Source: Deltaproteobacteria bacterium (GTDB lineage Bacteria > Desulfobacterota > QYQD01). From it: a stretch of 33,133 nt of DNA. The position numbers were made by a program, and so were the translations under genes. The notes under the pieces were generated by a model that saw only the letters and a program-made list of their open reading frames with translations, did no database searches and was not told the origin of the DNA. Every line of letters starts with the position of its first letter. Position 1 is the stretch's first letter. The stretch lies in contig QYQD01000164.1 of the NCBI GenBank assembly GCA_007280345.1, forward strand, positions 1 to 33,133, read 5' to 3'. This document shows, in pieces, positions 100-30,543 of this stretch.

Positions 100-813
100 T
101 TATTTTCTCCGCGCCCGCCATAATTTAGGGTCTACAAAATTAAGAATTTCTGGGTTCCATGATAATCCGAGCCAGGAAATCGCGTCCATAAGTTCCGAGT
201 AATCACCCGCCACCATTTTTTCGGGCCATATCACTTTTACCTGGAGGCCCGTCGTGATCATTTCCACGAATCGTTTTTCATGTTGCCGTACCCACCAAAG
301 CCATCCATCCCGCTCATTATTGACGCCGACCGCTTTCTGAATTTCCTTCCTGGCAAAAGCGCTCATGAACCCGGTTTTTTCGCAACTCGTGGCAATGTCA
401 CCGCTCCGCCGCCTGACTATAACCCACTTTGCCCGGGGGAACGCGTAAGACCACACGGGATGAAAGAGGCACATCTTGGCCCCTTTATAATACCAGGGAC
501 CGCTAATGTATCCTTCTTCCAGCATCACCTGCTCGACCCGGCGCCGCCAGTCCGTAGGGATTGGCAAATTCTCAACGTCTGGAAGCGGGTATTGACCCAG
601 GGGGTCCAGGCCCAGGCTCCGGAGGTAGGGTTTCGTGATCGTGTTGACGATTCGGGCGTTCTCCCACATCCCCTTTGGATTCGCCGAGTTTGGTCCCCGG
701 GTGATGCCACCAAAGGCGCCACAGAGCGATATGCTTCCGGCTATGAGCGAAGTGCCAGACCGTGCACATCCGGTGATAAGGATTGGATCATGTAGCCGCT
801 CAGAATTCATCAT
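100..813 (-). CDS. Sulfotransferase family protein (second of two)
   Basis: About 237 aa. The N-terminal segment ILITGCARSGTSLIAG matches the 5'-phosphosulfate-binding loop of PAPS-dependent sulfotransferases. A later WVIVRRRSGDIATS fits the 3'-phosphate-binding strand and helix, where an Arg and a Ser contact PAP. Expected role: transfer of sulfate from PAPS to a hydroxyl or amine on a glycan or other acceptor in the cytoplasm. Three start codons lie in a row (GTG 816, ATG 813, ATG 810). I chose ATG 813 because GAGAGG lies 7 nt upstream. The start overlaps the end of the APS-kinase-like gene, so the PAPS-maker and PAPS-user are translationally linked. No signal peptide. The acceptor cannot be read from sequence. 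Confidence 0.8.
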   Translation of the reverse strand: MMNSERLHDPILITGCARSGTSLIAGSISLCGAFGGITRGPNSANPKGMWENARIVNTITKPYLRSLGLDPLGQYPLPDVENLPIPTDWRRRVEQVMLEEGYISGPWYYKGAKMCLFHPVWSYAFPRAKWVIVRRRSGDIATSCEKTGFMSAFARKEIQKAVGVNNERDGWLWWVRQHEKRFVEMITTGLQVKVIWPEKMVAGDYSELMDAISWLGLSWNPEILNFVDPKLWRARRK

Positions 814-1168
814 CACCAGGCCTCTCGTAAGTGGTCCCGGGCCACAGGCATCCTCCGGGGAGATAAACCAGCCGACTACCCTCTTGCCATTGCGCCCGCA
901 TCATATTCCGCCATTCGCGCCGGGGTGCCACCGCGGCCACGATAACCACATGCCCCGGCCACTCACCCTCAGCCGCAGCTTCCGCCAGGCCCTGCAAATT
1001 TCTGATCCGGCCGGCGTCGGTAAAGTCCTGGTTGCCGGTCTGGTGCCGGAACATGTCGCCGTCGAGAATCCGCACTATCTTGCCCTCGGACCGGAGTTCC
1101 TGGGCCAGGTGGAAGGCGTGGTGGCTCTTGCCTGATCCGGGACGACCGGTAATGAGCACCACAGACAT
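800..1168 (-). CDS. APS-kinase-like P-loop protein (CysC-like, compact)
   Basis: 122 aa. The P-loop GRPGSGKS is at residues 8-15. It is followed by ILDGDMFRH, then a DF..AGRIRN segment, then VVIVAAVAPRREWRNMMR. This series (LDGD-x-x-R, D-F, R-x-x-N, P-x-R-x-x-R) is the order of conserved elements in adenylylsulfate kinases, which phosphorylate APS to PAPS. It is shorter than the usual ~170-200 aa and ends soon after the region where CysC has its lid and C-terminal helices. It could be a minimal active form or a related nucleotide kinase. ATG 1168 overlaps the glycosyltransferase stop as TAATG, with AGGAGG 10 nt upstream; the upstream GTG at 1192 is less likely. Its position next to two sulfotransferases supports a PAPS-supply role. 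Confidence 0.7.
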   Translation of the reverse strand: MSVVLITGRPGSGKSHHAFHLAQELRSEGKIVRILDGDMFRHQTGNQDFTDAGRIRNLQGLAEAAAEGEWPGHVVIVAAVAPRREWRNMMRAQWQEGSRLVYLPGGCLWPGTTYERPGDDEF

Positions 1169-3519
1169 TACCTCCAGGCCTCCTTCACCCACCGATCCCC
1201 CACCTCATGCACCCGGGGACGGCCATGAAAACAGACGATCCGGGCGTCCCGTGGGGGCACACCCTGGCGACATTCCCGCTTATATGAGTAGATGCCGGGG
1301 GCTGCGTCCTGGAGGGCCATGAACGTGCCCCCGTGCGCCTTAAGAGCCGCAGAAATATAAACCTGATCGCCCAGATGGTTGATCTCGGTGGCATTGAATT
1401 TTTCGTAAAGGAAATCATGGGAGCCGTTCTTCCAGGCCATAATCCCGGAGGCGCAGTTGCCCGCCAGCCGGTTTGCTCGATTCCAGGGGCGCAACCCGTA
1501 GAAGTCGCCCCCCAGGGTCAGCAGGTCGTCGATGTTTTTCAGGATGAGGGTGTCCAGGTCAAAATAAAGGACCCGCTCGGTAGACATGGCCCCCGGGCGG
1601 AACAGTTCAATCTTTGACCACCAGCCGGGGTGCCCGTTTGTGAGTCGAATGATTTCCACCCCTTTGATCTTGGGATCATCCGTCAAGCAGACGAACTTGA
1701 ACGGGTGGGTAAGATTCCGGTCCAGTGCCCGCTTCAAGTTCGCGACATACCGCTCATCGAAGTCGCCCCCAGTTTTCAGGACGCAGGCGATGGTGGTGGC
1801 CCGGGCGGGGGCCGGGCGGGTGTCCATCTGGATCTCCGGCGGCGGCAGAAGAGGAGTTTTTCTGACCAACCTTACCTCCGGAGCCGGAATGAACTTGTAA
1901 GGACCGTGCTTGGCCTCATAGAGTGCCTTGTTGCGTTTCCATCGGACCTTCTCGTTAGGTACGATGCAGTGGTCATGCCACTGGTGAGAGACAAGAAGGG
2001 CATCCCTCTGGCTTATGACAACCCCGGCCTTGAGCAAAGATTCCCGGAAATCGTCATCATCGAAGCAAAAGCCCTCGGAAAAGGATTCATCGAAGCCGCC
2101 GGACTGCAAGTATATCTGTTTGTTGAGAGCCGAACAGAAATGATAACGGGCCGGACGAAGTTTGCTGTGCTGAAACCACTGCTCCGGGACCCCCGACAAT
2201 TCTCCATGCTGGCCGATCTTTATTGCATTTCCCGCCGGGGCTTTCCGGCTTTGACATGCACAAACCAGATATTGCTCTGGATCTCCGTCAAAAGCCTTGT
2301 CCAAAGCCGCCAGGATATTTGATTCATGGTAAATTTCCGGGCTCGTCAGGACCACATAGACACCCTTGGCCTCGATCACACCCCGATTAAACAGTTTGGA
2401 GGGACCGTAGCAGTCGTCGGCCTCTTGTACTATCACCCGGATAGGCAAGCCTTGGGTCTGCCATTCGGCCACGACCTGGTGGAGTTCTTCGGGCCGGGCG
2501 CACTTGGAATCCTGGATGATGAGCAACTCCCAATCCTGGCGCCCTTTGTACCAGTATTGATAGCTTAATAGGGTATTATGGAGCAGGATCGGCCGGTCTA
2601 TGTAGGGCATAATAATGGAATATTCCACACCCTTGCCCTCTTTATAGGGACCGATGAATCCAGCTTCTGCCATGGCCCATTTGAGGCCGCTGCTCCGGGA
2701 ATCTTTTTGCACATCAGCGAAGCTTTGCCAGGAAGCTTCCGGCAGGGAAGATAGGCGATTACCTGCAAACCAGTGGATGCCAATGGTATGGGCTCGTACA
2801 TCCAAACGTTGCCGGTCAAGCCAAATGGCCAGCATCTGGTGGCGCACCGACCGGAAGGGGTAGACGGCATGTTGCGGAATCTGCCCGACTATGCTATTTC
2901 CCGCTTCTTTGACCCCGGGGGGGGCGAATTTGACAAGGAGATGTGTTCCTAAGCCCTGATAATCGGTCATGGGTTTGTTGACCATCTCCAGGCCCACCCG
3001 CTCCATTTCCCGGTAGAGATTACACCCCGGCGTACCCCCAAGAAAACCGATAGCCTGCCAGTGCTTAAGTTCTTGTGTCTCTCCCCAGCAAAGGAGGGCA
3101 TCGGCAGTCAAATTTACCGTAAGAGCCGACATGGGCCGAAAATAAAGGATATCAAAATCAGACCAGAAGCCTCCCATGGTATGCAACAGTCGCCAGCGCA
3201 AGAGATCGGAGCGGTGTACCTCCGTCATGCCTGCTGGAAAATCGTCTATGGGAGCCTCCCGAACCTCCACATTGGGGCCGGCTTCAGACAACCGCTTGAA
3301 CCAATCCTCGCCTTGCCAGGCGTAGTGGGCATGTTCCCCGGTGCGCCAGGTGGCCTGGGCACCAGAGTTCTTGGGATACCAGACGATCACCCGCCAGTCT
3401 GGATTGAGCCGGGCGAAGGTATATGCCGTCAACCAACGCAGCCAGGAGAGGGGTTTGTCTTTGCCCCAATACAAATGGAGTACGCGGGGTATGGTCGCCG
3501 GTGATATCAATTTATCCAT
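1168..3519 (-). CDS. Three-domain glycosyltransferase (GT32-like / GT2-like / GT8-like)
   Basis: 783 aa, apparently three transferase domains in tandem. Residues ~8-260 begin IPRVLHLYWG and hold LRWRLLHTMGGFWSDFD, the GT32/capsular-polysaccharide type with a DxD at ~121-123. Residues ~298-520 begin YSIIMPYIDRP and end with GGFDESFSEGFCFDDDDF, typical of GT2-fold enzymes. Residues ~575-783 contain LYFDLDTLI (DxD at ~654-656) and NCASGIMAW, GT8-like. A proline-rich linker (LLPPPEIQ) separates domains 2 and 3. Substrate and linkage are unknown. It overlaps the sulfotransferase upstream by 13 nt. ATG 3519 sits directly on GGAGG with no spacing, whereas TTG 3510 has 9-nt spacing and forms TTGA with the preceding stop, so the true start may be the TTG. 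Confidence 0.8.
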   Translation of the reverse strand: MDKLISPATIPRVLHLYWGKDKPLSWLRWLTAYTFARLNPDWRVIVWYPKNSGAQATWRTGEHAHYAWQGEDWFKRLSEAGPNVEVREAPIDDFPAGMTEVHRSDLLRWRLLHTMGGFWSDFDILYFRPMSALTVNLTADALLCWGETQELKHWQAIGFLGGTPGCNLYREMERVGLEMVNKPMTDYQGLGTHLLVKFAPPGVKEAGNSIVGQIPQHAVYPFRSVRHQMLAIWLDRQRLDVRAHTIGIHWFAGNRLSSLPEASWQSFADVQKDSRSSGLKWAMAEAGFIGPYKEGKGVEYSIIMPYIDRPILLHNTLLSYQYWYKGRQDWELLIIQDSKCARPEELHQVVAEWQTQGLPIRVIVQEADDCYGPSKLFNRGVIEAKGVYVVLTSPEIYHESNILAALDKAFDGDPEQYLVCACQSRKAPAGNAIKIGQHGELSGVPEQWFQHSKLRPARYHFCSALNKQIYLQSGGFDESFSEGFCFDDDDFRESLLKAGVVISQRDALLVSHQWHDHCIVPNEKVRWKRNKALYEAKHGPYKFIPAPEVRLVRKTPLLPPPEIQMDTRPAPARATTIACVLKTGGDFDERYVANLKRALDRNLTHPFKFVCLTDDPKIKGVEIIRLTNGHPGWWSKIELFRPGAMSTERVLYFDLDTLILKNIDDLLTLGGDFYGLRPWNRANRLAGNCASGIMAWKNGSHDFLYEKFNATEINHLGDQVYISAALKAHGGTFMALQDAAPGIYSYKRECRQGVPPRDARIVCFHGRPRVHEVGDRWVKEAWR

Positions 3520-4205
3520 CCTCCGAAACCGCTAGTGCATGGTTCCCGTTCCAGGGCTGGGGTCCAGTTTTCGATTATCTGGGAAACTGGCCGATCCTCC
3601 TGTCGGTAGGTAGTGGGCTTGAAATAAATCACTTTGGCACCAATATAATCCTCAATCCGAATAAGCGTTTCATCCCATCTGTTACACAAATCTTCATAGG
3701 TGACGGTTAGGGCTTCCGGAAAGACCTTCTGTAAAACCGCTTGGGTGTCGCGATGCTCCTCCAAGGCCACATGAAAGTCGTCGATATCAAATTTAACCGG
3801 GGGGTTGCTAATCTGATGGGGTTTGGAGACGTCGAAATCAAGCCGGGAGAAGGCCACACAGCTTGACAGATAGCGGTGTAACTGGTTTTCCCGGTTCAAG
3901 ATCACCGTCCGGGGCGGGAAAAAGGCGGCTATGGCCTGCCAGAAGCCTTCCGGCTCCAAATCAAAATTTTCCCGGATATGGGGCGCGCACCATTGATGGG
4001 TACAAGTCCCCCGGATTCGCTTATCCTGTTCTTTCGGAGTCATTTCCCTAAAATTGGCAAGTTGGCTGATTCCCTCACCCTTAAGGCCGTCCCACTGTTC
4101 CATGACCACTTCCGGGTGGGCTTGCAGGGCCGCCAATAGCATCTGCGTCCCGGAGCGCATTTGGGTGATCATCAAAAACCGGCTACGTTGTTTGGCATTA
4201 TTCAT
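3507..4205 (-). CDS. Sulfotransferase family protein (first of two)
   Basis: 232 aa from ATG 4205. RFLMITQMRSGTQMLLAAL near the N-terminus is a 5'-PSB-like loop (R-S-G-T), and VILNRENQLHRYLS about 100 residues later fits the 3'-phosphate-binding region. The C-terminal half has VTYEDL, a motif common in bacterial sulfotransferases just before the last helix. The start overlaps the methyltransferase stop as TAATG. An in-frame ATG at 4232 exists but would overlap more of that gene. It shares little beyond the motifs with the sulfotransferase at 100-813, so the two probably act on different acceptors or positions. It is soluble, with no membrane segment. Confidence 0.75.
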   Translation of the reverse strand: MNNAKQRSRFLMITQMRSGTQMLLAALQAHPEVVMEQWDGLKGEGISQLANFREMTPKEQDKRIRGTCTHQWCAPHIRENFDLEPEGFWQAIAAFFPPRTVILNRENQLHRYLSSCVAFSRLDFDVSKPHQISNPPVKFDIDDFHVALEEHRDTQAVLQKVFPEALTVTYEDLCNRWDETLIRIEDYIGAKVIYFKPTTYRQEDRPVSQIIENWTPALEREPCTSGFGGWIN

Positions 4206-4702
4206 TATCTCAACCGATAGCCGAAGAAGCATTCCCGGGTAGAGGGTAGGATAACCCGGGCCCAGGATTCGTCAAATTCATCATAGGTCCACAAGCTGCG
4301 GTGCAAGATATTCTCATTTTGATAATAAAAACCCTGTGTATCCTCAAAACAGGTACGGTTGTCATCCCATTTCATGGGCGTCAAGGACACCACAGCCCTC
4401 TGAGCAAGCCTGACTGCTTGGCCTAAGATTTCTAAACTCCGGTGCTTATCAAGATGCTCCAAGACATCTAGGAGCAGAATAATGTCAAATTCCCGGTCTA
4501 GTGGTAAGTCGCTATCGTTTAGGTCTAATAGGTAGTCGGGTTTCGCCTTGGCCCAAGAGTCCAGGGAAAACACCTGTGCCGCGCCGATATTCTGATAGCG
4601 TCGGTCGCCGCTGCCCACATCCAACACCACGTCTGTCGGCAAGGCAAAATTCTGGAGCCATTTCAGTATATGCGGTTCGGGTGGATATTGGGTTTTGACC
4701 AT
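4205..4702 (-). CDS. Class I SAM-dependent methyltransferase
   Basis: 165 aa. VVLDVGSGDRRY is the SAM-binding motif I, FSLDSWAKAKPDYLLDLND covers the acidic end of strand 2, and FDIILLLDVLEHLDK is the motif IV region of Methyltransf_11-type enzymes. The fold is compact and lacks a recognisable substrate domain. It probably methylates a small molecule or sugar in the same pathway as its neighbours. The ATG overlaps the radical SAM stop as TGATG; the ORF-track start one codon earlier is a TTG. The next gene starts on its stop codon, so it is part of one translationally coupled run. Confidence 0.75.
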   Translation of the reverse strand: MVKTQYPPEPHILKWLQNFALPTDVVLDVGSGDRRYQNIGAAQVFSLDSWAKAKPDYLLDLNDSDLPLDREFDIILLLDVLEHLDKHRSLEILGQAVRLAQRAVVSLTPMKWDDNRTCFEDTQGFYYQNENILHRSLWTYDEFDESWARVILPSTRECFFGYRLR

Positions 4703-5664
4703 CAAACAAACTCCGCGTGGCTCAGGGGCATCGTGAGCAGATCCAGGGCCGAGTTGTAGTCATCGTAATAACACCGGACGCACCGGGAGCCATCGAAGGG
4801 GGTCTGCTCTCCCCATATTCGGTCAATGTCTTCCAGGGAACCCATGCGCATGCTCTCGACGTAATCGAGCCCCGGGGGGTCCTGGGCATATTGAACGCCG
4901 CAACATGGGTAAATACCGCCGCCTGCCGATACAACCGGCTTGATGAGGCTGATCAGGCACCGCTCGGCCCCCATGACAAAGGTGGCCCGGTCCTGATAGA
5001 TGACTTTGCTGTCGTCGATGCCTGCCCCCAGGAGATGCGCCCGTGCGACATTCATTCTGAGGGCTGACTTTTCGATATCCAGAAGGTCGCCAACGATCCG
5101 CACATGGGTAAAATTATGCTCATTGGCGAAGATAACCAGCCGCCCAAGCACGTCCCAATCAGGTTTCCTGGTCAGCACGTGGGAAAAGGCCCAATCTATT
5201 CCAGGCCCCGATTGCACGGCGTTCATTATCCCGGCCCATTCCGGCTCCCGATCATCGCTTGAGGAAATCCGGCACCAGGTGACATTTTTGTAACTGGAAA
5301 ACTTGCTGAATTGCGTCCCGTTGGTCACAAGGCCCACCTGGATTTGCAGGCCGTGAAGGATTTTAATGAGAGCGTTGATGTCGGGGTGCAGTAGGGGTTC
5401 CCCGCCGCCGGTGATCGTGACAGACTGGCAACCGAGCTTCTGAAAATTGGCCATGACCCGGAGTAATTTCTCTAAATCGAGTTCGGCCTTGCGGTCCCTT
5501 TCAGAGCAAGAGCAAAACCCGCACTTGAGGTTGCACCGATTTGTGGGATTCAACTGGACGTGCTGGGGGGGAATATAGCCAGCCCGGATGCGATTTATCA
5601 CAAAGGCGTTCTGCAATAATTTGACCGGCAGGGTGCTGGCCGCGGTGTAGCTTCTTAGAGTCAT
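4702..5664 (-). CDS. Radical SAM enzyme with SPASM-like C-terminal cysteines
   Basis: 320 aa from ATG 5664. NRCNLKCGFCSC gives the CxxxCxxC cluster (Cys 44, 48, 51) for the 4Fe-4S that cleaves SAM. TITGGGEPLLHPD is the GGE motif, and QVGLVTNGTQF follows as in MoaA/PqqE/AslB-like enzymes. Late cysteines (YPCCGVQY and CVRCYYDDYN) suggest a SPASM-type auxiliary cluster. Family members modify peptides, nucleosides or sugars; the substrate here is unknown. The ORF track extends 53 codons upstream, but that part is out of frame with the small ADH-like gene and not protein-like. The chosen ATG overlaps the stub's TGA as ATGA, which decides the start. Confidence 0.8.
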   Translation of the reverse strand: MTLRSYTAASTLPVKLLQNAFVINRIRAGYIPPQHVQLNPTNRCNLKCGFCSCSERDRKAELDLEKLLRVMANFQKLGCQSVTITGGGEPLLHPDINALIKILHGLQIQVGLVTNGTQFSKFSSYKNVTWCRISSSDDREPEWAGIMNAVQSGPGIDWAFSHVLTRKPDWDVLGRLVIFANEHNFTHVRIVGDLLDIEKSALRMNVARAHLLGAGIDDSKVIYQDRATFVMGAERCLISLIKPVVSAGGGIYPCCGVQYAQDPPGLDYVESMRMGSLEDIDRIWGEQTPFDGSRCVRCYYDDYNSALDLLTMPLSHAEFV

Positions 5665-5789
5665 AACTGAGCCCCATAAATCCCGCTGGCGAGGACTTTT
5701 ACCAGAACTTGACCTACCCCAAGGGATGGGGTTTCGAGTTCGGCTACCGTGAGCGGGGCACCTAATTCTGTTAGGATGGCGGCTTTCAT
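5661..5789 (-). CDS. 42-aa stub matching the N-terminus of zinc-type alcohol dehydrogenases
   Basis: Too short for the ORF track. Translation begins MKAAILTELGAPLTV and ends VLVKVLASGIYGAQL, which is the first beta-strands of the GroES-like domain of MDR/zinc alcohol dehydrogenases (usual form MKA..L....PL.....P..G.VLVKV.ASGICxxQ/DL). The position that is normally the catalytic-zinc Cys is Tyr here. The rest of the enzyme is absent. The start overlaps the upstream gene as ATGA and the stop overlaps the radical SAM start as ATGA, so the frame is clean. It may survive as a translational coupler, or be the remains of a dehydrogenase lost when the cluster was assembled. Confidence 0.65.
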   Translation of the reverse strand: MKAAILTELGAPLTVAELETPSLGVGQVLVKVLASGIYGAQL

Positions 5790-6223
5790 TTCCCAAGCAC
5801 CTTATGGGCACCTTCTTCAACATCCACCTTGCTCACCGCCTCTACATCAGCAGCCGCCTTTATCTCTACCTTGGCTTCGGTCAGTTTGGTGAGCCACTTT
5901 AACAGAGGCAGGGCAGTGGCCTCTAGCTTATCCATGATCGTATTGGGGCCACCATAGAGAGCTACCTGGTTTAGTACATAAGCCTTGTAACGGGTAACCA
6001 CTTCTTTCTCGGTGATCGCCCCAGATAAGATGCCCATCCCCAGCAACATGGACTTATTGACATCCGCAGCGATATCATACAGATCCCCGACATTCTCCGA
6101 ATCCAGCAAGCGCCGCAACTTGATCTTCAGGTAATGGGTCCGGGCAAGGGCTTCCTTTTCGGTTTCGGTTTCCGATCCTGTCAGAGTTTTGCCGTAGATT
6201 GAGAGTTGGTCTTCAAAGGTCAT
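5786..6223 (-). CDS. Hypothetical 145-aa alpha-helical protein behind the DGR reverse transcriptase
   Basis: I do not recognise a family. The sequence is mostly helical with heptad-like stretches (HYLKIKLRRLLDSENVGDLYDIAADVN), has no cysteines, no signal peptide and no membrane segment, and ends in an acidic/lysine-rich tail (AKVEIKAAADVEAVSKVDVEEGAHK). The ATG overlaps the RT stop as ATGA and its own stop overlaps the ADH-like stub as ATGA, so it is translated in series between the DGR and the sulfation/glycan genes. It could be a small virion component or chaperone, but nothing in the sequence decides this. Confidence 0.7.
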   Translation of the reverse strand: MTFEDQLSIYGKTLTGSETETEKEALARTHYLKIKLRRLLDSENVGDLYDIAADVNKSMLLGMGILSGAITEKEVVTRYKAYVLNQVALYGGPNTIMDKLEATALPLLKWLTKLTEAKVEIKAAADVEAVSKVDVEEGAHKVLGK

Positions 6224-7224
6224 GTCGTCGCCTCCTGCAATTTTTTGTAGGTCCTGGGAAGTTTTATGGACTGGGGAGCGGCCTTTATTAGGCGCAGAAG
6301 ATGGGGCAGCGAGTCGGTACCCTTGGCGTGCCCCAAAAGCGATACCACCGCTTGCTGGTCCCCGGACTTCAATCTCCGGCTAAATTTATAGAGACTGTAT
6401 TTGCGGATGATCCGCCTGGTTTTCCAGGTGTGGTAGCCGACAAAATTGACCCCCCGCTTGATCCTCTGGATGGTGGACTTGGATAATTCCAGGTGCAGCT
6501 TGGTTTTCAAATACTCCACGATCAAGCCCCGATAGGCCAGTGCCTGTTCCCGGCTGAGACCGATGAGCACCATATCGTCCACGTAGCGCACATAGTGCCG
6601 CACCTTCAAAACCCGCTTAATGAAATGGTCCACCGGGTTGAGATAGATCAAAGCGTAAAGCTGGCTCAAAAGGTTGCCGATGGGGATGCCCAGGGGATCG
6701 CCGGTGTCGGCAAAAAGCATCATCGCGTCCACCAGGCGCCGATCCTTAATCTTGCCCTCGATCAACCCCCGGAGGATTTGCCGGTCTATGGAATAAAAGA
6801 ACTTCCGCACGTCGAGCTTCAAGATGTAAGCATCGTTACCATAATGCCTGAGGGCTTTTTGGGTGTAATCGCTGGCCTTGTGCGTCCCATACCCATTCCG
6901 GCAGGCAAAGGAGGTGGAAATAAAGGTCCGGTCGAAAATCGGATAGATCACCCGGTAAATTGCGTGCTGCAGCACGATATCCCGGAAGGCCGGTGCATAG
7001 ATTACTCGAGGCTTGGGCTCGTAAACCATGAACTTGAAATAAGGCTGCGGCTGGTAACTGCCGGCGTGGACTTCTTCGTAGAGGGCCGCCAGGTTGCTTC
7101 CCAGGTTGATCTCGAACTCAAAGCAGGCCCGCTTGCCCCGTTTACCTCGCCGGGCGTCGAGATAAGCATGGTACAGGTTGCTCTTGCTGAAAGCCCGTTC
7201 GAACAAATTGCCGAATCGTTTCAT
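6220..7224 (-). CDS. DGR reverse transcriptase
   Basis: 334 aa from ATG 7224. It carries LKLDVRKFFYSID (motif with catalytic Asp, ~137-147), IPIGNLLSQLYA (IGxxxSQ, the hallmark that separates DGR RTs from group II intron and retron RTs, ~182-188) and RYVDDMVLI (catalytic YVDD, 214-217). No maturase or endonuclease domain follows. Role: copies the adjacent TR RNA with misincorporation at adenines, giving cDNA that replaces VR in the target gene. AGAAGGA precedes ATG 7224 by about 4-5 nt. The ORF stays open upstream to ATG 7476 through the TR, but that start has no clear Shine-Dalgarno, so I take the TR-coded extension as fortuitous. It overlaps the next gene as ATGA. Confidence 0.93.
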   Translation of the reverse strand: MKRFGNLFERAFSKSNLYHAYLDARRGKRGKRACFEFEINLGSNLAALYEEVHAGSYQPQPYFKFMVYEPKPRVIYAPAFRDIVLQHAIYRVIYPIFDRTFISTSFACRNGYGTHKASDYTQKALRHYGNDAYILKLDVRKFFYSIDRQILRGLIEGKIKDRRLVDAMMLFADTGDPLGIPIGNLLSQLYALIYLNPVDHFIKRVLKVRHYVRYVDDMVLIGLSREQALAYRGLIVEYLKTKLHLELSKSTIQRIKRGVNFVGYHTWKTRRIIRKYSLYKFSRRLKSGDQQAVVSLLGHAKGTDSLPHLLRLIKAAPQSIKLPRTYKKLQEATT

Positions 7225-7345
7225 AAAGTCCTTCTGATTTTCGGATTGAATCCTACCAAAAAGAAGGTTTCTCCTGATTTCGCCTAAGGCTGGATAACCT
7301 ATCCCTGTTCTTCCACTATCCGCAAGAGCACGGTTCGAGGAAATG

Positions 7346-7458
7346 CAGTCCGCCTGCCACCCCACATTGTTGTTCGAGTTCGTCCGATTGTTGTTCCAAT
7401 TCAGATACCAGACTCCCGCATTGGACGTGTTGTTCCAATACGCACAGGAGAGGGGACA
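7346..7458 (-). repeat. DGR template repeat (TR)
   Basis: 113 bp lying between avd and the RT gene. It aligns without gaps to the VR at 7920-8032 (constant offset of 574). On the coding strand it is rich in AAC/AAT codons (conceptually YWNNTSNAGVWYLNWNNNRTNSNNNVGW). 17 of 29 template adenines differ in VR; the only other differences are two T-to-G changes at 7364 and 7446. Asn-rich AAY codons allow access to many amino acids without making stop codons, the usual DGR design. Similarity stops abruptly on both sides. Confidence 0.95.
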
Positions 7459-7480
7459 TGTTAATAGGTTACCCATAAGC

Positions 7481-7885
7481 TCAGTTCCAGCGGTTATCGT
7501 CTTTGATCTTTTTGATCCAGCCGCCGATCATCTTGCCGATCTCATCAACCAGGACGGTGATGGCCTGGTAGCGATTAGCCTCCCGCTCCAGAAAGTGCTC
7601 GTCTTCCTGTTTTCCGTCCTTGAACCGGAAATACCCCAATTCATAAGCCAGATAGAGCTGCATCCGCAACTTCTCGTGGGTTATGTCCAGGTTGGTTAAG
7701 GTGGTTTTCTTGAGATAGCGCTTCTCCCCTTCGGTGATGAGGTCAAAGATTCCATAGGCTGTGTTTCTGATTATGTTGGCTAAAGCGTATTTCTCATGTT
7801 TCGGAAAATGGTTAAGGTAAATATTCAATAACTTCAAAAACTCCGCCAATTTGCGATAAAGCCGTGGCTCGCTGTGTATCCCCAT
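7481..7885 (-). CDS. avd: DGR accessory variability determinant (Avd)
   Basis: 134 aa, all-helical. PKHEKYALANIIRNTAYGIFDLI is the conserved segment of Avd/four-helix-bundle proteins (S23-like), and the C-terminal half is rich in Arg/Lys (KIRMQLYL-type helices, GWIKKIKDDNRW). In the Bordetella phage system Avd forms a pentameric barrel that binds nucleic acid and the RT and is needed for mutagenic homing. ATG 7885 is chosen over GTG 7888 because GAGG lies 5 nt upstream. The gene sits between the target gene and the TR, the classic target-avd-TR-RT order. Confidence 0.88.
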   Translation of the reverse strand: MGIHSEPRLYRKLAEFLKLLNIYLNHFPKHEKYALANIIRNTAYGIFDLITEGEKRYLKKTTLTNLDITHEKLRMQLYLAYELGYFRFKDGKQEDEHFLEREANRYQAITVLVDEIGKMIGGWIKKIKDDNRWN

Positions 7886-7914
7886 CACCGCCTCGTTATC
7901 ACTCGGCTACACAG
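7872..7914 (-). repeat. Inverted repeat just 3' of the variable repeat
   Basis: CTGTGTA at 7908-7914 (coding strand) pairs perfectly with TACACAG at 7872-7878, leaving a 29-nt loop that itself contains a GCC/GGC pair. It begins 5 nt beyond the VR boundary and covers the target gene stop and avd start. Some DGRs need a hairpin or cruciform right after the initiation-of-mutagenic-homing site. Here the arms are short and the loop is long, so a functional role is only possible. Confidence 0.3.
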
Positions 7915-9580
7915 GGTAACAGGCCGCCCGCCACCCCCCATTGGAGTACGAGTTCGTCCGATCGCAGTACCAATGCAGAGACCAGACCCCCGCAAGGGAC
8001 GCGTCGTACCAATACGCACCGGAGAGGGGACAAAGTTCGTTCCGAATATATTGATAAAAAGAATCTTTGCCGAACAGGTTATCGCCACCGGTGCTTAAAC
8101 CAGTGACGGCAAAGGGCAGGCCCAGGCCGGCCAGGAGGTACTCAGCGCCGCTGACGTCCTCGGCTAACACCTGGTTAAAGGCGTTGCCATACCGTTGGGC
8201 GAAAGCCCCACCAGCGGATGTGACGAATACCGGAACGAAAGCGTCCATCATGGCCGCCACCCCTTCAGCCCCCCAATGGTCGGTAGTAATGCCCCCTGGT
8301 CCAGCATTGTTTCCAGAGGTAAAGTCCTTCATGGCCGTGGCTTCTTTGGCGGCGTAGAAGGTGCCCTTAGTGGCAGTGCCCCCACTAACCCATGCCCCCG
8401 TCGCTGTGGTATTTGCCCCGGTTAGAGAGAAAGTGTCGTCGTTAATCTTAAGAATCGTGTAGATTTTGTCGTTCAGCACCGTCATAGGGGCCGCAACTGA
8501 GACGATTTGTATGAGGTTACCATTAACATAGCCATGCCCTGCAATAGTTACTACCGCAGGATTGGCTTCGGAGATTCCGGTAATATTTTTGGTTGCGGCG
8601 ACGCACGTCATTCCCAAGGATATCTCATACATCAGACCGTTGAGGTCGGAGATGCCGCACTCCTGGCCGTTGTGGGTGGTTTTAGCAAACGGAAATCCGC
8701 TCCCGGCCTTGCCGCAGTTACTATAACCGTCAGTCAGGTAGACCACCGTGGTGTCGTCAGTGTCCCGAAGGGCATTGTTGTTGCAGCCCTTGGGGTAATT
8801 CTTGGCCCCGGTCCAGTCGTACCAGGCACACCACGCCTCACATTTGGCAGCCTGCCCGTGGGCCAATTGTAGTAACCCCAGTGCCGCCCGCTGGAACTGA
8901 CTGGTGGCGAAAAAGATGCTGTTGGCGTTCCCTGCTCCATCCACCCCGTCCCGAGCATGGGCAGCCTTAATGCACTCGGAGTAATTATTTGCGATGCAGG
9001 CTGTTAAACCAACTCCGGGGGTGGCAGAGTACATGGGGTTGTGGGCAGAATGGGTGCTGAGGGGCAGGCCATTCTTGACGCTGGCCCCAACATAACCGGA
9101 CCCCTTGGCGACCTTGGAAACCTGGTACTTGTCGAAGAAAAACCCAGACTTCTCCGCTCCGCCGTCAATGAAAGCCCGGTGCAGGGCGTAACCCGCAGCA
9201 TTGGCTGCCGCAGTGTTAGCATAGGCACTGGCGGGTTTGACGTCCACCCAGTTCACCGGAAACCCATTGGCCCCGGTGCCGATTTTGTAAAAAAACTTGG
9301 GTATCCAGCACATCACCGATCCTTCGGAGTACTGGTAATTGCCATAGTTGGGTGCCGTTGAATCGGTATAGCCGGTCAGGAGCGTCATGCCGGAGGGCAA
9401 ATCGGCCGCCGGACAAATCCCGACTGCGAACCCCGGACCCCCGGCGATGCCAATATCGTTCACCGGGGCCGGAAAGGTTTGGAGATAGCGCCTGCTTCCG
9501 TCTGACCCCAGAACATAGTAGCCTTGGCCGTCAAAATTAACTCCCCCATTCCCTCGGCTATTAACAGTTGATGGTCTCAT
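7907..9580 (-). CDS. DGR target protein: C-type-lectin (FGE/DUF1566-like) adhesin with an inserted FCCH-like domain
   Basis: 557 aa. The Trp/Gly/Cys-rich body (e.g. YSEGSVMCWIPKFFYKI, EAWCAWYDWTGAKNYPKGCNNNALRDTDD, CGISDLNGLMYEISLGM) and the C-terminal GAYWYDASLAGVWSLHW repeat fit the formylglycine-generating-enzyme-like C-type lectin fold used by DGR variable proteins. Residues ~328-402 (ITGISEANPAVVTIAGHGYVNGN ... SGGTATKG) look like the small beta domain called FCCH or E1-like in phage tail proteins, apparently inserted in a surface loop. Residues 517-554 are the VR. It probably sits on the virion as receptor-binding protein, though display elsewhere is possible. Start ATG 9580 has GGGGGAG upstream; the gene follows the structural gene by 4 nt. 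Confidence 0.88.
   Translation of the reverse strand: MRPSTVNSRGNGGVNFDGQGYYVLGSDGSRRYLQTFPAPVNDIGIAGGPGFAVGICPAADLPSGMTLLTGYTDSTAPNYGNYQYSEGSVMCWIPKFFYKIGTGANGFPVNWVDVKPASAYANTAAANAAGYALHRAFIDGGAEKSGFFFDKYQVSKVAKGSGYVGASVKNGLPLSTHSAHNPMYSATPGVGLTACIANNYSECIKAAHARDGVDGAGNANSIFFATSQFQRAALGLLQLAHGQAAKCEAWCAWYDWTGAKNYPKGCNNNALRDTDDTTVVYLTDGYSNCGKAGSGFPFAKTTHNGQECGISDLNGLMYEISLGMTCVAATKNITGISEANPAVVTIAGHGYVNGNLIQIVSVAAPMTVLNDKIYTILKINDDTFSLTGANTTATGAWVSGGTATKGTFYAAKEATAMKDFTSGNNAGPGGITTDHWGAEGVAAMMDAFVPVFVTSAGGAFAQRYGNAFNQVLAEDVSGAEYLLAGLGLPFAVTGLSTGGDNLFGKDSFYQYIRNELCPLSGAYWYDASLAGVWSLHWYCDRTNSYSNGGWRAACYPV
7920..8032 (-). repeat. DGR variable repeat (VR)
   Basis: 113 bp at the 3' end of the target gene, coding for residues 517-554. 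Compared with TR it has 17 changes at adenine positions giving 13 amino-acid changes (for example NN to YD, NNN to YCD, NN to YS, Q to R, D to A), while non-adenine positions are conserved apart from two T-to-G changes. The 3' end is GC-rich (GGGGGGTGGCGGGCGG), as expected for the site where homing initiates. Trp and Gly scaffold codons lacking adenine are unchanged. Confidence 0.95.
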
Positions 9581-23721: not shown

Positions 23722-23907
23722 TCACGCCTCCTTGACCTTATTGTGGGGTTCATCGCCAGACGATTGAAACATCAAATCTCCAACGGCCTCAGCTACAGAA
23801 TTTCCAAAACCCGCCGGAGATTCCTGGAGGTTGATAAAATCTTCGTGGTAGACGGCGCACCACTTGTTGCCGTCCACAAAAACCCGGATAATCATTTCGG
23901 AATCCAT
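23722..23907 (-). CDS. Hypothetical 61-aa protein
   Basis: From ATG 23907: MDSEMIIRVFVDGNKWCAVYHEDFINLQESPAGFGNSVAEAV. The pattern (strand, DGN-x-WCA, NLQE, AGFG) is seen in small phage proteins of unknown role. The ATG overlaps the HNH stop as TGATG, with GGAGGGG just upstream; the GTG one codon earlier is less likely. Confidence 0.6.
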   Translation of the reverse strand: MDSEMIIRVFVDGNKWCAVYHEDFINLQESPAGFGNSVAEAVGDLMFQSSGDEPHNKVKEA

Positions 23908-24512
23908 CACCCCTCCTTAACTTTTGACCTTTCTCGGTACATGACTTTGTAGGCTTTCACTGCCTCCGGTTTATCCTGTCGTCGTTGCTTGCAGGCTTGG
24001 ATATTGCAATCCCGATGATAATTTTTCGCGGAACCCATCTTCAGGTTTTGAGGATCATCGTATTTCCCGCAAATATGGCATAAGCGCCAGGACGCCTGAC
24101 CGCAAGCCTTCAATGCCCGCATCCGCATGTGTATCAATTTGTGGTAGTTGCGATCTTGGCAAACCACCAAATTAGAGGGAAGGTTGTTGGCCCGGTTTTC
24201 ATCAACGTGATGAGGTATGGCCTCCGGAGGCAAGGGTTTTCCCAAAGCCTTTTCCGCCACAAGGATGTGCTCACGAACATAACCCTGAGAATCAGCCCTG
24301 GGATGGTCCGGCATTGAAATCAAAACGTAGCCGTCATTTTTGCGTTTTACCCCGCCATTCCACTTGGGATTATTGCTCCCTGTTGAGCTGTGTCCTTGAA
24401 TGAATCTGACCGGTTTGCCTTTGATTCGACCATATTTCTTATGGTTTTTCTTGGGGATAGTGGTTAGCCTACCGCATCCGCATTGACATAAACCCTCGGG
24501 TATTTTATCCAT
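23907..24512 (-). CDS. HNH homing-type endonuclease 1
   Basis: 201 aa from ATG 24512 (MDKIPEGLCQCGCGR), supported by GAGG 6 nt upstream; the track start at 24587 overlaps the nuclease gene. Order: a CQCGCG zinc-type N-terminus, RIKGKPVRFIQGH, DGYVLISMPDHPRADSQGYVREHILVAEKALGKPLPPEAIPHHVDENRANNLPSNLVVCQDRNYHKLIH, which is the HNH core (HH ... N ... H), and a C-terminal CHICGKYDDPQNL knuckle. It cleaves DNA and probably spreads itself between phages. It is a paralogue of the gene at 25643-26227. Confidence 0.82.
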   Translation of the reverse strand: MDKIPEGLCQCGCGRLTTIPKKNHKKYGRIKGKPVRFIQGHSSTGSNNPKWNGGVKRKNDGYVLISMPDHPRADSQGYVREHILVAEKALGKPLPPEAIPHHVDENRANNLPSNLVVCQDRNYHKLIHMRMRALKACGQASWRLCHICGKYDDPQNLKMGSAKNYHRDCNIQACKQRRQDKPEAVKAYKVMYRERSKVKEG

Positions 24513-24522
24513 TGTCTTCCTC

Positions 24523-25650
24523 TTAGGTGGACTTATGGAATCCCACTTTTTCAACAGTTTTGGCTTGGTATTGACCCAAGATTCCATCCAGAAGTTCTTT
24601 CCTTTTGAGCTTTTTCAAGCCTCTGTCTAAAGAGGTTTTAGTTAAACTCAACATCGGCCATACTTGGGATGGTTCAACCCCCTGGGCCAGTAGATCGTTA
24701 ACAACCTGTTCGGGGTCAAGATCATAAGAGACGCTGGATGAGGGGCCATAAATTACGTTACCTACAGTGATTGATCCATACTCCGTAACCCATGCCTTGA
24801 GATGGTTTTTAATCGCCTTCCCCATTTCTTCAATCGCCAGGAGCAGGGTCGCCGCTTTCACTGCGTCCTCGTGATTTACCGGATAAAGGACGTTGGCCGG
24901 CACGAGCGCCTGGGCCATGACCGGGCAATGGGATGTGACCCCGCACCAGCCGCAGAACGATCCGGGAGTCGGGTCAAAATACTTCTCGGCTTCGATGATG
25001 GCGATTTTGGCTTCCAGTTCTGCCGGCACGGTGTCCAGGTCGCCGGGGGTCAAGAGGATTTCACGTTCCGCTCCATATCTCAGAAAATGGAGTTGCAGCA
25101 AGATTTCTTGAGCGTCCGGGTAACGAGTCCGCCTGGCACCCCAGCCGTAGATACGAAGTTGTAAGGGAATGTGCTCCGGGTCGATTTCGATGACCGCACG
25201 ATTAGATTTCCAATCTTTTATGACCGCCAGGCCACCTTGCAAGAAAGTGAAATCGAGCACCATCCGGAAAAAGACTTCGGGGGCATGATACTCGCAGGGC
25301 TCCCAGGCGCGGTTAAAAGCAAGCTGCAGTTCTACTCCGGGGTTCTCTACCGGCGGCAGGATGAAATTCTCGTAGGCCCGCGGCCAGACCTCCAGCACAT
25401 CCGCGGGGGCCTCCTTGGGGGTGATCTGCTGGGCCCAGGCCCAATCGGTTTGCAGGCCTTGAGAAATGAGCCGATTAAGATACTTGGCCGCCAACTCATG
25501 AAGCATCTGGCCGATGAGCAGGGGTTCCGCGGTGACCCGGGGGATTTTGTCGATGCGGATGAGTTTAAAGGCGAACGGGCAGCCGCCGTGAGCGTCGCCG
25601 CCATGGAACATCTCCAAAGCTGAGTGAGAATAACTCGCCTGTTTAGCCAT
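24523..25650 (-). CDS. PD-(D/E)XK nuclease, Cas4/AddB/RecB-like with Fe-S cysteines
   Basis: 375 aa from ATG 25650 (GGAGG 9 nt upstream, inside HNH 2). GQMLHELAAKYL supplies the conserved His of motif I, RMVLDFTF the Asp of motif II, and VIKDWKSNR the D/E-x-K of motif III. One Cys near the N-terminus (GGCPFAFKL) plus three near residue ~255 (FCGWCGVTSHCPV) fit the 4Fe-4S arrangement of Cas4/AddB-type exonucleases. Likely a recombination or end-resection nuclease of the phage, perhaps with the SbcC-like ATPase. The C-terminal ~100 residues (SLTKTSLDRGLKKLKRKELLDGIL) are not part of the nuclease core. Confidence 0.82.
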   Translation of the reverse strand: MAKQASYSHSALEMFHGGDAHGGCPFAFKLIRIDKIPRVTAEPLLIGQMLHELAAKYLNRLISQGLQTDWAWAQQITPKEAPADVLEVWPRAYENFILPPVENPGVELQLAFNRAWEPCEYHAPEVFFRMVLDFTFLQGGLAVIKDWKSNRAVIEIDPEHIPLQLRIYGWGARRTRYPDAQEILLQLHFLRYGAEREILLTPGDLDTVPAELEAKIAIIEAEKYFDPTPGSFCGWCGVTSHCPVMAQALVPANVLYPVNHEDAVKAATLLLAIEEMGKAIKNHLKAWVTEYGSITVGNVIYGPSSSVSYDLDPEQVVNDLLAQGVEPSQVWPMLSLTKTSLDRGLKKLKRKELLDGILGQYQAKTVEKVGFHKST

Positions 25651-26227
25651 GCCGAATGTCCTCCAAGTTCTTATTCTTTTTAAGTTGATATCTTTCTTTA
25701 TCGTATTGGGTTTTGCATGACTTATGGCACATATTCCTGTTTCCACCATTTACCAAATTCAGGGGGTCATCATATTGTTTACAGAAAGAACATTTTCTCC
25801 AATTAACATAACCGCACTCTTTAAGTGCCTTTTCCCTGGAATGCAGTAAATTGTGGTAGGTTTGATCTTGGCAAACTACGAAATTCTCAGGAGAATTGTC
25901 CGATTTATCATGATTAACATGGTGGATGACCGCAGATAAAGGTAACAACTTCCCAAGAATTTTTTCTACAATTAAATATGGTTCGCCGACATACCCAATT
26001 TTAGTGGCCCTGGGGTGATCAGGGGCAAATACCATAACGTAGCCATGGTTATCTGTTCTTCCGCCTTTCCAAAGTACACTTAATGGACCCTTGCCAAAGT
26101 GATAGTGGCCCGCGATAAATTTTAATGGCTGCCCCTTTATCCAGCCTTTATTCTTGTCGCTTTGGCGAGCCAACTTTGTCTCACCCCCGCACCCGCACTG
26201 GCAAAGTCCTTTAGGAATTTCTGACAT
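25643..26227 (-). CDS. HNH homing-type endonuclease 2
   Basis: 194 aa from ATG 26227 with GGAGG 6 nt upstream; the longer track ORF to 26578 reads through a terminator-like structure. It shares the layout of HNH 1: GLCQCGCGG, WIKGQPLKFIAGH, NHGYVMVFAPDHPRATKIGYV, LLPLSAVIHHVNHDKSDNSPENFVVCQDQTYHNLLH (HNH core) and a C-terminal CSFCKQYDDPLNL knuckle. It is more AT-rich and lysine-rich than its surroundings, consistent with recent arrival. Its last codons contain the Shine-Dalgarno of the nuclease gene. Confidence 0.82.
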   Translation of the reverse strand: MSEIPKGLCQCGCGGETKLARQSDKNKGWIKGQPLKFIAGHYHFGKGPLSVLWKGGRTDNHGYVMVFAPDHPRATKIGYVGEPYLIVEKILGKLLPLSAVIHHVNHDKSDNSPENFVVCQDQTYHNLLHSREKALKECGYVNWRKCSFCKQYDDPLNLVNGGNRNMCHKSCKTQYDKERYQLKKNKNLEDIRHG

Positions 26228-26238
26228 GGCAATCCTCC

Positions 26239-26311
26239 AAAAAGAAAAACCCGAGAGTTGTCTAGCCGCGCAACACGGCCCCAGGGCCTCGCGGACACCT
26301 GGACTCTCGGG
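26239..26311 (-). terminator. Terminator-like multi-stem RNA before HNH 2
   Basis: Minus strand: CCCGAGAGT (26311-26303) pairs with ACTCTCGGG (26258-26250) as a 9-bp closing stem, followed by TTTTTCTTTTT. The 44-nt interior can form further stems (CCGCG with CGCGG, and GGCC-CTGG-GGCC). This is larger than an ordinary terminator and may be a small structured RNA with a terminal U-tract. The HNH 2 Shine-Dalgarno follows at once. Confidence 0.65.
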
Positions 26312-26384
26312 ATACTTATTGGTGGATAGATAAAACAAGCCCATTGACGGGGGGCCTCCCGGCTGCGCGAATTTAGACAAATTC

Positions 26385-26413
26385 ATAGTATTTCCTTCCT
26401 GGAGATATGTCAA
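26385..26413 (-). promoter_or_regulatory. Candidate sigma-70 promoter
   Basis: Minus-strand TTGACA (26413-26408), 17-nt spacer, TACTAT (26390-26385). Perfect -35, weaker -10. It would transcribe the structured element at 26239-26311. An ATG with GGAAGGA upstream at 26385 opens a frame through that element into HNH 2, which I do not regard as a gene. Confidence 0.45.
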
Positions 26414-26429
26414 GTAGTTTCGCATGATC

Positions 26430-27845
26430 TTAAAAGAGTGACTTCCTCGCCTGCCCCTCGTTGCCCTTGGGAGGCGGGGGAGGAGGCGGCGGATCAGCCA
26501 ACCGCTCCTTGCCCTCCTGGACCTCTGCCGCCGCGGTGACTTTGAGCACAATCCCGGCCTCATTGAAGGCTTTCTCAATTACCCCTACCGTGAGACCCTG
26601 GGCCACTTCCGCCAGGTTGTCCACCAGATCAAGGACCACCTGCATTTCACCCCCCAGGGTCGGCCCCCAATCCAGCCACCGGCCGATGGGCACGCCTTTG
26701 GTGGTCACCAGATCGATGGGCAGGTCAACCATGCCGTCCGGTTCCTTGGCCAACTCCATGAGGGCCGGAAGGGTGATCGCCATTGCCGGGGAACCGGCCC
26801 CCTGCTCCCCTCCGTTTCCGGGGCCCTGGCTTTGCGTCCCTGCCGCTGCTGTGGGTTCCGGGGCCGGGGCGGGGGATTGGGTAGCAGAAGCCTTTTTCTT
26901 GCCACCAGCGGCCTTAGGCGAAGCCGTTCCTTCGGCTTCGGGGTCCGGGTAGAACTCCGCCGCGGTTTCGGCTTGTTCCGGGGCCGGTTCCAGGTGCGGA
27001 AGCAATAGGAGCTTTCGAGCCTCTACCTCTACCGTGTCCATCTTCACCCGGCGCTCGATGCGCCTCAGGGCAATTTCGTAACCGATCTCGGCCAACTGCT
27101 GTTCCGGGCCGCGGAACTCGATGGAGACGATGAACGCCACCATGCTCTTGCCGTCCGGGGTCGTAACCGTCTTGGGCGAGAGCACCAGCGTCAAGGGGAT
27201 TCCGGCCAGGGGGCCACCCGTCAAGGTTTTGATGAGGGCCAAACTGGAAAGGATGGCATTGACGGTATTCCAGGAGGTCGTCCGGAACTTCCAGACGCCG
27301 CCCACCCGGTCAACCCCTTCGATGAGGGCCTGTAGGGTGCCTAAGGGTTTGCACCGCGGCTGCCCTTTGTAATCCGCCGCCAGGCGCTCACAGGGGCAAG
27401 TCACCATACCGTATTCATTGGGGCCAGGTTTGCGCTCCTGTAGTTTGTCAGAGTCAAAAGGTTCCCCTGTAGCCACTCCGGGGACAAAATAAATTACTCC
27501 TTCCCCGAATCTTTGCGCTTCCTCGCCGTCCCCGGAGCACCAGCACCGGGAGCCCTGATAAGCGGAGTAGCGGGTCATAAAGTTGAGGTCAATGTCATCG
27601 TAGAGCAGCCGCACAGGGAGTTCTACCAGCTTGGTACCGCCCGGGTTGACCATTTTCATCAGGGCGTCGTCCGCCATAAACCGGCCGGCCGCGTCCCGCT
27701 GCATGGTGGTAATGACAAAGTGGTCATACTTCACCGGGAGCCGGTAGGTTTCATTGCTCCCCTGTTTCTTCCGTTCATCCCCCAGGCCGCCGATCTTGAT
27801 CTTGCCGCGTTCGGCCAGTTGGGGGGTTAATCCTTTGATCGCCAT
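26430..27845 (-). CDS. Gp3-like recombination directionality factor family protein
   Basis: 471 aa. It begins MAIKGLTPQLAERGKIKIGG, then LPVRLLYDDIDLNFMTRYSAYQGSRCWCSGDGEEA, VTCPCERLAADYKGQPRCKPLGTLQALI (cysteine pairs that could bind zinc), VWKFRTTSWNTVNAILSSL and LAGIPLTLVLSPKTVTTPDGKS. This order is that of the Gp3-like RDF family found in phages with large serine integrases. Residues ~295-365 are an Ala/Pro/Gly-rich linker and the C-terminus is a poly-Pro tail (PPPPPPPPKGN), longer than usual. No integrase is in the window, so the RDF role is by family only. GGAGGATTTTTT precedes the ATG. Confidence 0.7.
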   Translation of the reverse strand: MAIKGLTPQLAERGKIKIGGLGDERKKQGSNETYRLPVKYDHFVITTMQRDAAGRFMADDALMKMVNPGGTKLVELPVRLLYDDIDLNFMTRYSAYQGSRCWCSGDGEEAQRFGEGVIYFVPGVATGEPFDSDKLQERKPGPNEYGMVTCPCERLAADYKGQPRCKPLGTLQALIEGVDRVGGVWKFRTTSWNTVNAILSSLALIKTLTGGPLAGIPLTLVLSPKTVTTPDGKSMVAFIVSIEFRGPEQQLAEIGYEIALRRIERRVKMDTVEVEARKLLLLPHLEPAPEQAETAAEFYPDPEAEGTASPKAAGGKKKASATQSPAPAPEPTAAAGTQSQGPGNGGEQGAGSPAMAITLPALMELAKEPDGMVDLPIDLVTTKGVPIGRWLDWGPTLGGEMQVVLDLVDNLAEVAQGLTVGVIEKAFNEAGIVLKVTAAAEVQEGKERLADPPPPPPPPKGNEGQARKSLF

Positions 27846-29091: not shown

Positions 29092-29642
29092 TGCTTTTGT
29101 TCTCCTTTAATGAAATTGAAGGCGCTCTCTATACTGATAGCCAAGGCCAGAGAGAGTTGATAGGGAATCATGGCTCGTTCCGCCGCTTTACTGGAAGACA
29201 TTCGTTCTTTCCCCATATTTAATCTGATTTTTGAGAGAGGCGGGATGATACCCCAAAGGTAAATTGGGTATCCAATCCACGCCGGTTTTCCCAGAAGTGA
29301 ATTAAACCATTTAACGGCTCCCCGAGTGTTTTCGATAACCCAAAAACGGGGGTTTGCTTCTTGGATGACCCGGTACGTTGCTTGCACCAGTATCATTGAT
29401 GGTTCCTGCCCAGTGCGACACCAAGGCATAGACTCTCTGGAAAATTCTTCACAAGGCGGCGAGGCCCAGATTAAATCCAGTGGATCACCATCCCATGTGA
29501 AGGTTCGGATATCCGCCACTAAATCTGGTTTGAACTGCGGGTTATTGTCCAAGGTAGTAACTTGCCAACCCCTATCTTTCATGGCAGAACTGGCACCCCC
29601 AAGACCTGAAAACAGATCAAGCATTTGCAATGAGTCTGCCAT
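29088..29642 (-). CDS. Small DNA C5-cytosine methyltransferase
   Basis: 184 aa. MLDLFSGLGGASSAMKDRG is motif I, VTTLDNNPQFKPDLVADI motif II-III, IWASPPCEEFS motif IV with the catalytic PPC, and WVIENTRGAVKWF motif VI (ENxxG-type). LSSSKAAERAMIPYQLSLALA corresponds to the last motifs. It is half the length of typical Dcm enzymes and lacks an obvious target-recognition domain, as in other compact phage forms. It may protect phage DNA from restriction. No Shine-Dalgarno is seen before ATG 29642 or ATG 29624, and its first 26 nt overlap the transposase gene. Confidence 0.78.
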   Translation of the reverse strand: MADSLQMLDLFSGLGGASSAMKDRGWQVTTLDNNPQFKPDLVADIRTFTWDGDPLDLIWASPPCEEFSRESMPWCRTGQEPSMILVQATYRVIQEANPRFWVIENTRGAVKWFNSLLGKPAWIGYPIYLWGIIPPLSKIRLNMGKERMSSSKAAERAMIPYQLSLALAISIESAFNFIKGEQKQ

Positions 29643-30543
29643 AGGTGAGCCGTTTATTTGCGGTTGCGGCTATGAAACTTTCAAGCCGCTCAAGAGTATG
29701 CCGTTTGCAGTTACCGGCGTTCAGCCGGAAGGTAAACTCATTGACATAACGCCCCAGGTGCTTAGGGCTGGCATGATGATAAACGCCGTAAAGACCCCGC
29801 TTCAATGTAGCCCACACGCTGTCGATGCTGTTTGTGGTCACGCCGTCTTTAACATAATCCCCGGCGCTGTGATTAACCGACTTGTGCCGGTAAAGCAGAC
29901 CGTCCAGGCCAGAGTAAACAGGGGCATCATCCGTATGGATCATGGAGCCGATAGCCACATGGTCAAGGATTGCGCCATGCAGAGTCGCCTTATCCGGGCT
30001 TTTGAACGGCTTGGCAATCGTGTTGCCGCCCCTCTCCCGAAGTCCGACAACCCCGACCTTGCCGACAGAACCACGGCCAGCAAGCAACTTCTTGTTTTGA
30101 TGCTTGGCGGTTTCCTTGCCCCCGATATAGGTTTCATCAACTTCGATAATTCCCCGGAGTTCTGCAAGGTCATCGCCACAGGCTTCCCGGAGCCGATGCA
30201 GCATGAACCAGGCCGACCTTTGGGTAATGCCTATCTCCTTGGAGAGTTGCAGGGAGGATATGCCCTTCCTGGCCGTCACAAGAAGGTACATGGCATAAAG
30301 CCACTTATGCAGGGGAATGTGGCTCCGCTCGAAGATCGTGCCGGTGCGCACCGTGAAATCCTTAATGCAGGCATTGCAGCGGTAAAAGCCACCTTTAAGG
30401 GCATGGATTCGCTTCATTTCCCCGCAATGAGGGCATTTCACGCCCTTGGGCCACAGCCTGGATTCGAGATATTCCCTGGCCGATTCCTGATCGGGGAATC
30501 TCTCGAAAAGCTGAAAAGTGGAAATGGTGATTTTGTCTTTCAT
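29617..30543 (-). mobile_element. IS1595/ISXO2-type transposase gene
   Basis: 308 aa transposase CDS. An N-terminal zinc ribbon (CPHCGEMKRI ... YRCNACIKDFTVRTGTIFE) precedes the DDE domain: IIEVDETYIGG (first Asp), MIHTDDAPVYSGL (second Asp), and SVNHSAGDYVKDGVTTNSIDSVWATLKR (N/E region). A strong promoter touches the start codon. I find no terminal inverted repeats, and the 3' end overlaps the methyltransferase gene, so this looks like a lone transposase rather than a complete insertion sequence. Confidence 0.85.

Follow-up and report, generated by a model that had tools for sequence, protein, structure and literature searches.

The window, the whole 33,133-nt stretch of DNA analyzed here, is one entire contig (QYQD01000164.1, C20) of a 2.43-Mb draft assembly. 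On its minus strand lie, in order, a target gene with a variable repeat (VR) near its 3′ end, avd, a template repeat (TR), a spacer and a reverse transcriptase (RT) gene. The original prediction had read these genes as a complete diversity-generating retroelement (DGR) in the classic order, and target gene, avd, TR and RT were indeed all found, at 7907–9580, 7481–7888, 7346–7458 and 6220–7224, respectively. As criteria for a DGR we used an RT of the DGR clade with the motifs [IVL]GxxxSQ and YxDD, and TR/VR mismatches of which at least 75% fall on TR adenines. Further criteria were a C-type-lectin target with a 3′ VR, Avd, a structured RNA in the TR–RT spacer and a GRNA hairpin 4–34 bp past VR. 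The DGR on this contig is genuine and complete, and all of its parts are intact.

The contig is that of a tailed phage. It carries genes for terminase, portal, Mu-F-like and encapsulin-like head proteins, and no terminal repeat was found on it. An IMG/VR contig from metagenome 3300025307 (L131) represents the same phage, with 99.98% identity over 5,657 bp. The contig is a single fragment of a draft MAG, so its host is not certain. After the DGR, a minus-strand cargo cluster at 100–5823 encodes an APS kinase (PF01583, 1.4e-17), two weakly sulfotransferase-like ORFs, a large glycosyltransferase, a methyltransferase-like ORF and a radical SAM protein, which suggests phage-borne sulfated glycan modification. 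An intact IS1595-family transposase lies at 29617–30543 (minus strand; NF033547, 4e-57). Also on the minus strand, an HNH_3 endonuclease ORF and an ORF alike by eye (25643–26578 and 23907–24587) are probably homing-type endonucleases.

TR (7346–7458) and VR (7920–8032, target residues 517–554; both minus strand) aligned over 113 bp without gaps, as predicted, and 17 of the 19 mismatches (89%) fell on the 29 adenines of TR (hypergeometric p = 1.1e-10). From TR to VR, six of these adenines had become T, six G and five C, and the remaining two mismatches were both T>G. The 13 residue changes counted originally are borne out as those arising from adenine sites; with the two T>G sites the number rises to 15. 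Only this single VR is present, a second one not being found in the 2.43-Mb assembly. That the TR/VR pair arose by chance or plain duplication is already refuted and has a negligible probability, given the adenine bias and a like adenine pattern in ~100 relatives.

The target gene (7907–9580, minus strand) encodes a 557-aa tail-fibre-like variable protein. It had no Pfam match, and hhalign against Mtd alone was not significant. An AlphaFold model built with 59 homologues reached a mean pLDDT of 90.3 (37 with 9 homologues), and the best solved fold for this model was 5vf4 (Foldseek, E = 1.5e-12), which is TaqVP, a DGR variable protein from a prophage of Thermus aquaticus (PMC6328139). A profile from the 59-sequence target alignment matched 5vf4 (E = 3.8e-7). 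The model thus places the predicted C-type-lectin end in a DGR-type lectin fold of the FGE type, with VR at the C terminus as in TaqVP. The two proteins share ~15% identity, and the window's target differs in having an extra FCCH-like domain inserted in the lectin fold (approximately residues 327–411, 8348–8602, minus strand). This insert matches E1 FCCH domains by Foldseek, and PF16190 was found in 11 of the 59 homologues; the module is doubled in L132 and L133 and apparently absent from L044, the match there passing over this segment. The neighboring avd (7481–7888, minus strand) encodes an accessory variability determinant, with matches to Pfam bAvd (1.8e-16, above cut-off), PHROG Avd (1.9e-22) and NCBIfam Avd (2.7e-19, under that model's own cut-off).

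The RT (6220–7224, minus strand, 334 aa) contains both predicted motifs, IGNLLSQ (~6661–6681) and YVDD (~6574–6585). Its best PDB match was 8ub7, the BPP-1 DGR RT (E = 8.6e-55), compared with E values of ~1e-18 for group II RTs, and it also matched PHROG 1423. The phylogenetic check called for originally, a maximum-likelihood tree of 23 DGR RTs and 5 group II-like RTs, put it inside the DGR clade and apart from the group II RTs with 100/100 support. It scored below the family cut-offs for group II TIGR04416 (112.9 versus 300 bits) and retron St85 (44.7 versus 235 bits). Sequence comparison thus supports a DGR-type RT, set apart from group II enzymes by tree and profile score and from retrons by the weak St85 profile score. 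A 145-aa ORF at 5786–6223 (minus strand) overlaps the RT stop; it is conserved only in the closest relatives, where it adjoins RT (61–65% identity in L002–L004), and gave no family match in Pfam, PHROG and NCBIfam profile searches.

The RT proper begins at ATG 7224, after AGAAGGAC, with an AGAAGG Shine-Dalgarno sequence five bases upstream. The first ATG of the ORF is 7476, and from there the frame stays open through TR, which raises the alternative that ATG 7476 is real and that the RT is a fusion whose first ~84 residues come from TR and spacer. The frame is open not only in the window but also in L001–L004 and some other relatives, the PHROG 1423 match begins at residue 8, and tblastn matches cross TR in phages VP58.5 and phiARM81mr. 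Against a fusion, codon-position changes between lineages were 35/24/128 in the RT core but 3/3/4 and 4/5/6 in the spacer; because the spacer changes show no codon periodicity, the spacer is without coding constraint. In most relatives, Pseudomonas phage Bise among them, stops close the TR–spacer frame; a good Shine-Dalgarno sequence precedes ATG 7224, and the RNA structure described below accounts for the spacer. We therefore rejected the fusion as very improbable: the long frame through TR invites mis-annotation. The PHROG RT profile includes TR-encoded sequence, so such mis-annotation is probably common. Annotated RTs start ahead of TR in Vibrio phage VP58.5 and Aeromonas phage phiARM81mr (L023, 2980–4257; L025, 2977–4263). 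In VP58.5 the stretch from TR to the RT core has no ATG in the RT frame, and here a TR-derived RT N-terminus is harder to dismiss.

The spacer between TR and RT (7225–7345, minus strand) folds into a multi-hairpin RNA revealed by covariation. Across 23 relatives, 97.3% of the cells of 24 named pairs were paired, compared with 83.5% after column shuffling and 32–45% when the structure was slid, a control that leans toward structure because the structure was drawn from the same sequences. Stronger evidence comes from double changes, which occurred in 79 cells versus 20.7 in shuffles. Alifold added an outer helix. Single-sequence folding gave no signal (z = −0.4), covariation alone giving one, and the spacer had no match in Rfam. 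The covariance model (R1) recognized the spacer in 33 of the 52 loci searched; distant DGRs were not matched, among them BPP-1, which gave no match at E values up to 1. We found no report of this covarying element in the open-access literature searched. The last hairpin (CCTTC/GAAGG, 7230–7267, minus strand), in which four of five pairs covary, holds AGAAGG, the RT Shine-Dalgarno sequence, in its 3′ strand, and the same overlap occurs in most relatives with a recognizable Shine-Dalgarno sequence. We infer that this hairpin may sequester the RT ribosome-binding site and so couple RT synthesis to template folding.

Past VR, at a distance of 4–34 bp, Guo and colleagues described a GRNA-loop hairpin that is required (PMC3240598). 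Its counterpart here, GCC-GA-GT-[GATA]-AC-GA-GGC (7890–7907, minus strand), starts 12 bp past VR and carries a GATA loop; its first base is the last base of the target stop codon (7907). It agrees only loosely with the published GC-rich stem of 7–10 bp, since its stem has seven positions and two of these are tandem G.A mismatches. Energy folding alone failed to single it out, and the idea that the window has no hairpin after VR was rejected once relatives were compared: a GRNA hairpin is present in 47 of 57 relatives versus 5.2 in shuffles, and 21 of the 57 have the form with tandem G.A mismatches, versus 0.02 expected.

The cassette resembles that of Bordetella phage BPP-1 (mtd-avd-TR-brt) in the order of target, avd, TR, spacer and RT, in its adenine-directed changes and in the GRNA hairpin past VR. 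However, the two RTs, 36% identical, belong to different subclades, and the BPP-1 hairpin has an 8-bp Watson-Crick stem in place of seven positions with a tandem G.A mismatch. The BPP-1 spacer folds, recruits RT-Avd and provides the priming adenine, and brt is without a clear ribosome-binding site (PMC12875486), whereas the window has one within its spacer hairpin. Pseudomonas phage Bise is closer, with 58% RT identity, a spacer of the same family (99 bits) and a TR/VR pair with nine changes, all at adenines; it differs in its closed frame through TR and in a contractile-tail-type gene neighborhood. A genome in the genus of the window's bin (L007) carries a different DGR with an RT of another subclade, in which 20 of 21 TR/VR mismatches fall on adenines.

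The nearest relatives of the cassette are L001–L004 (IMG/VR UViG 3300037043, 3300037046, 3300037048 and 3300037484). They share its order and spacing, spacer RNA and hairpin, with RTs 86–88% identical (88% for L001/L002 and L003), Avd 87–94% identical and TRs 94–97% identical over the matched part. In contrast, VR differs at 24–28 of 113 sites, targets are 62–70% identical, and outside the cassette no DNA-level similarity was found in the stretches compared. Recent divergence confined to VR is seen among relatives. L001/L002 and L003 differ at six sites in 6,716 bp, every one inside VR; TR adenines account for five, and the sixth is a T/G difference at a TR thymine. All 15 differences between L068 and L069 in 7,232 bp lie within VR and at TR adenines. 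Most other near-identical contig pairs behave likewise, with VR differences at up to ~20 sites, nearly all TR adenines, while flanks in those sets mostly show 0–2 differences per kb. Such contig pairs serve the purpose of the read-mapping check proposed originally, in that VR varies at adenine sites amid kilobases without change. The near-identical contigs L100 and L103 show the reverse, a shared VR and eight differing TR sites, which reflects either an assembly artefact or a TR change.

These data bear on the possibility that the DGR is decayed, having diversified its target once and being now inert. This copy is known from one snapshot, which leaves some room for decay. Yet every part is intact, most differences in the RT core between lineages lie at third codon positions, spacer pairs are maintained, and between the window and L004 only 3 of 113 TR sites have changed as against 24 VR sites. 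Together with the VR-only divergence among close relatives, these observations make decay quite unlikely. The activity of the window's own copy is judged from relatives ~80–83% identical at the DNA level; the DGR of the window is very probably active. The original claim of strong evidence for past mutagenic retrohoming is thereby upheld and, for the lineage, 'past' if anything understates the case.

The two T>G changes of the window are part of a wider excess. Among the 44 non-adenine mismatches of 57 non-redundant TR/VR pairs, 18 were T>G (p = 6e-8), and the excess was replicated in 32 further TR clusters gathered later, the BPP-1 clade included (13 of 41 versus 3.6 expected, p = 3e-5); these p-values assume independent mismatches, which is only roughly true. 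Over all 88 clusters, T>G accounted for 31 of 82 non-adenine mismatches, with ~8 expected, and G>T for 2. The excess persisted with 10 bases trimmed off each end (18 of 42). T>G affects ~1.4% of TR thymines, compared with ~0.25% for other non-adenine types, and is commonest at T before A (OR 4.3, p = 0.001). Two explanations were tried and rejected. With template slippage re-using a 3′ G, T before G should not be least affected, as it is; with old TR adenines as the source, T>A should be common, yet it is rare (5). Non-adenine changes have been noted before, with T preferring C (PMC6642488), and the present set differs; the T>G pattern was not reported in the open-access literature searched.

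Ordinary drift or protein selection, rather than the RT, is a serious contender as the source of this excess, though we do not hold it to be the probable one. VR is under selection, the numbers are small (31 events), and the earlier report found T preferring C. However, drift is expected to affect TR and VR alike, and T>G outnumbers G>T by 31 to 2; the changes are spread evenly among the three codon positions (10/9/9) and lead to many different residues, two being synonymous; two arose between near-identical contigs (L003 and L081); and the excess recurred in the replication set. The T>G excess thus suggests a weak second error channel. That DGR RTs weakly direct dC opposite template U and that the spacer of this clade hides the RT ribosome-binding site we put forward jointly as a tentative proposal.

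Taken as a whole, the locus is almost certainly best explained as a complete type-avd DGR in a tailed phage, operating as follows. One transcript across avd, TR, spacer and RT would give both proteins and the template. By analogy with BPP-1 priming, the folded, conserved spacer RNA would be the start site from which RT and Avd synthesize cDNA back through TR. The RT would misread template adenines and, we infer, rarely uracils, yielding T>G. As in BPP-1, the cDNA would then take the place of VR in the target gene, with homology and the GRNA hairpin immediately past VR as guides. The outcome would be a tail-fibre-like protein with its C-type-lectin tip altered at ~15 residues, and the altered tip presumably binds new host receptors, as in BPP-1.

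The element itself is one more, ordinary phage DGR. Its clade is of value for the contig pairs, which show, indirectly, natural and continuing retrohoming. The T>G signal, to which surveys requiring matching non-adenine bases, such as DiGReF, are blind, leads to an exact and testable statement on RT fidelity. The spacer is conserved enough to model, so it should help, where annotation fails, to locate TR and the real start of the RT. If the RT ribosome-binding site is indeed hidden in the last hairpin, one RNA molecule would not serve as folded template and RT messenger simultaneously.
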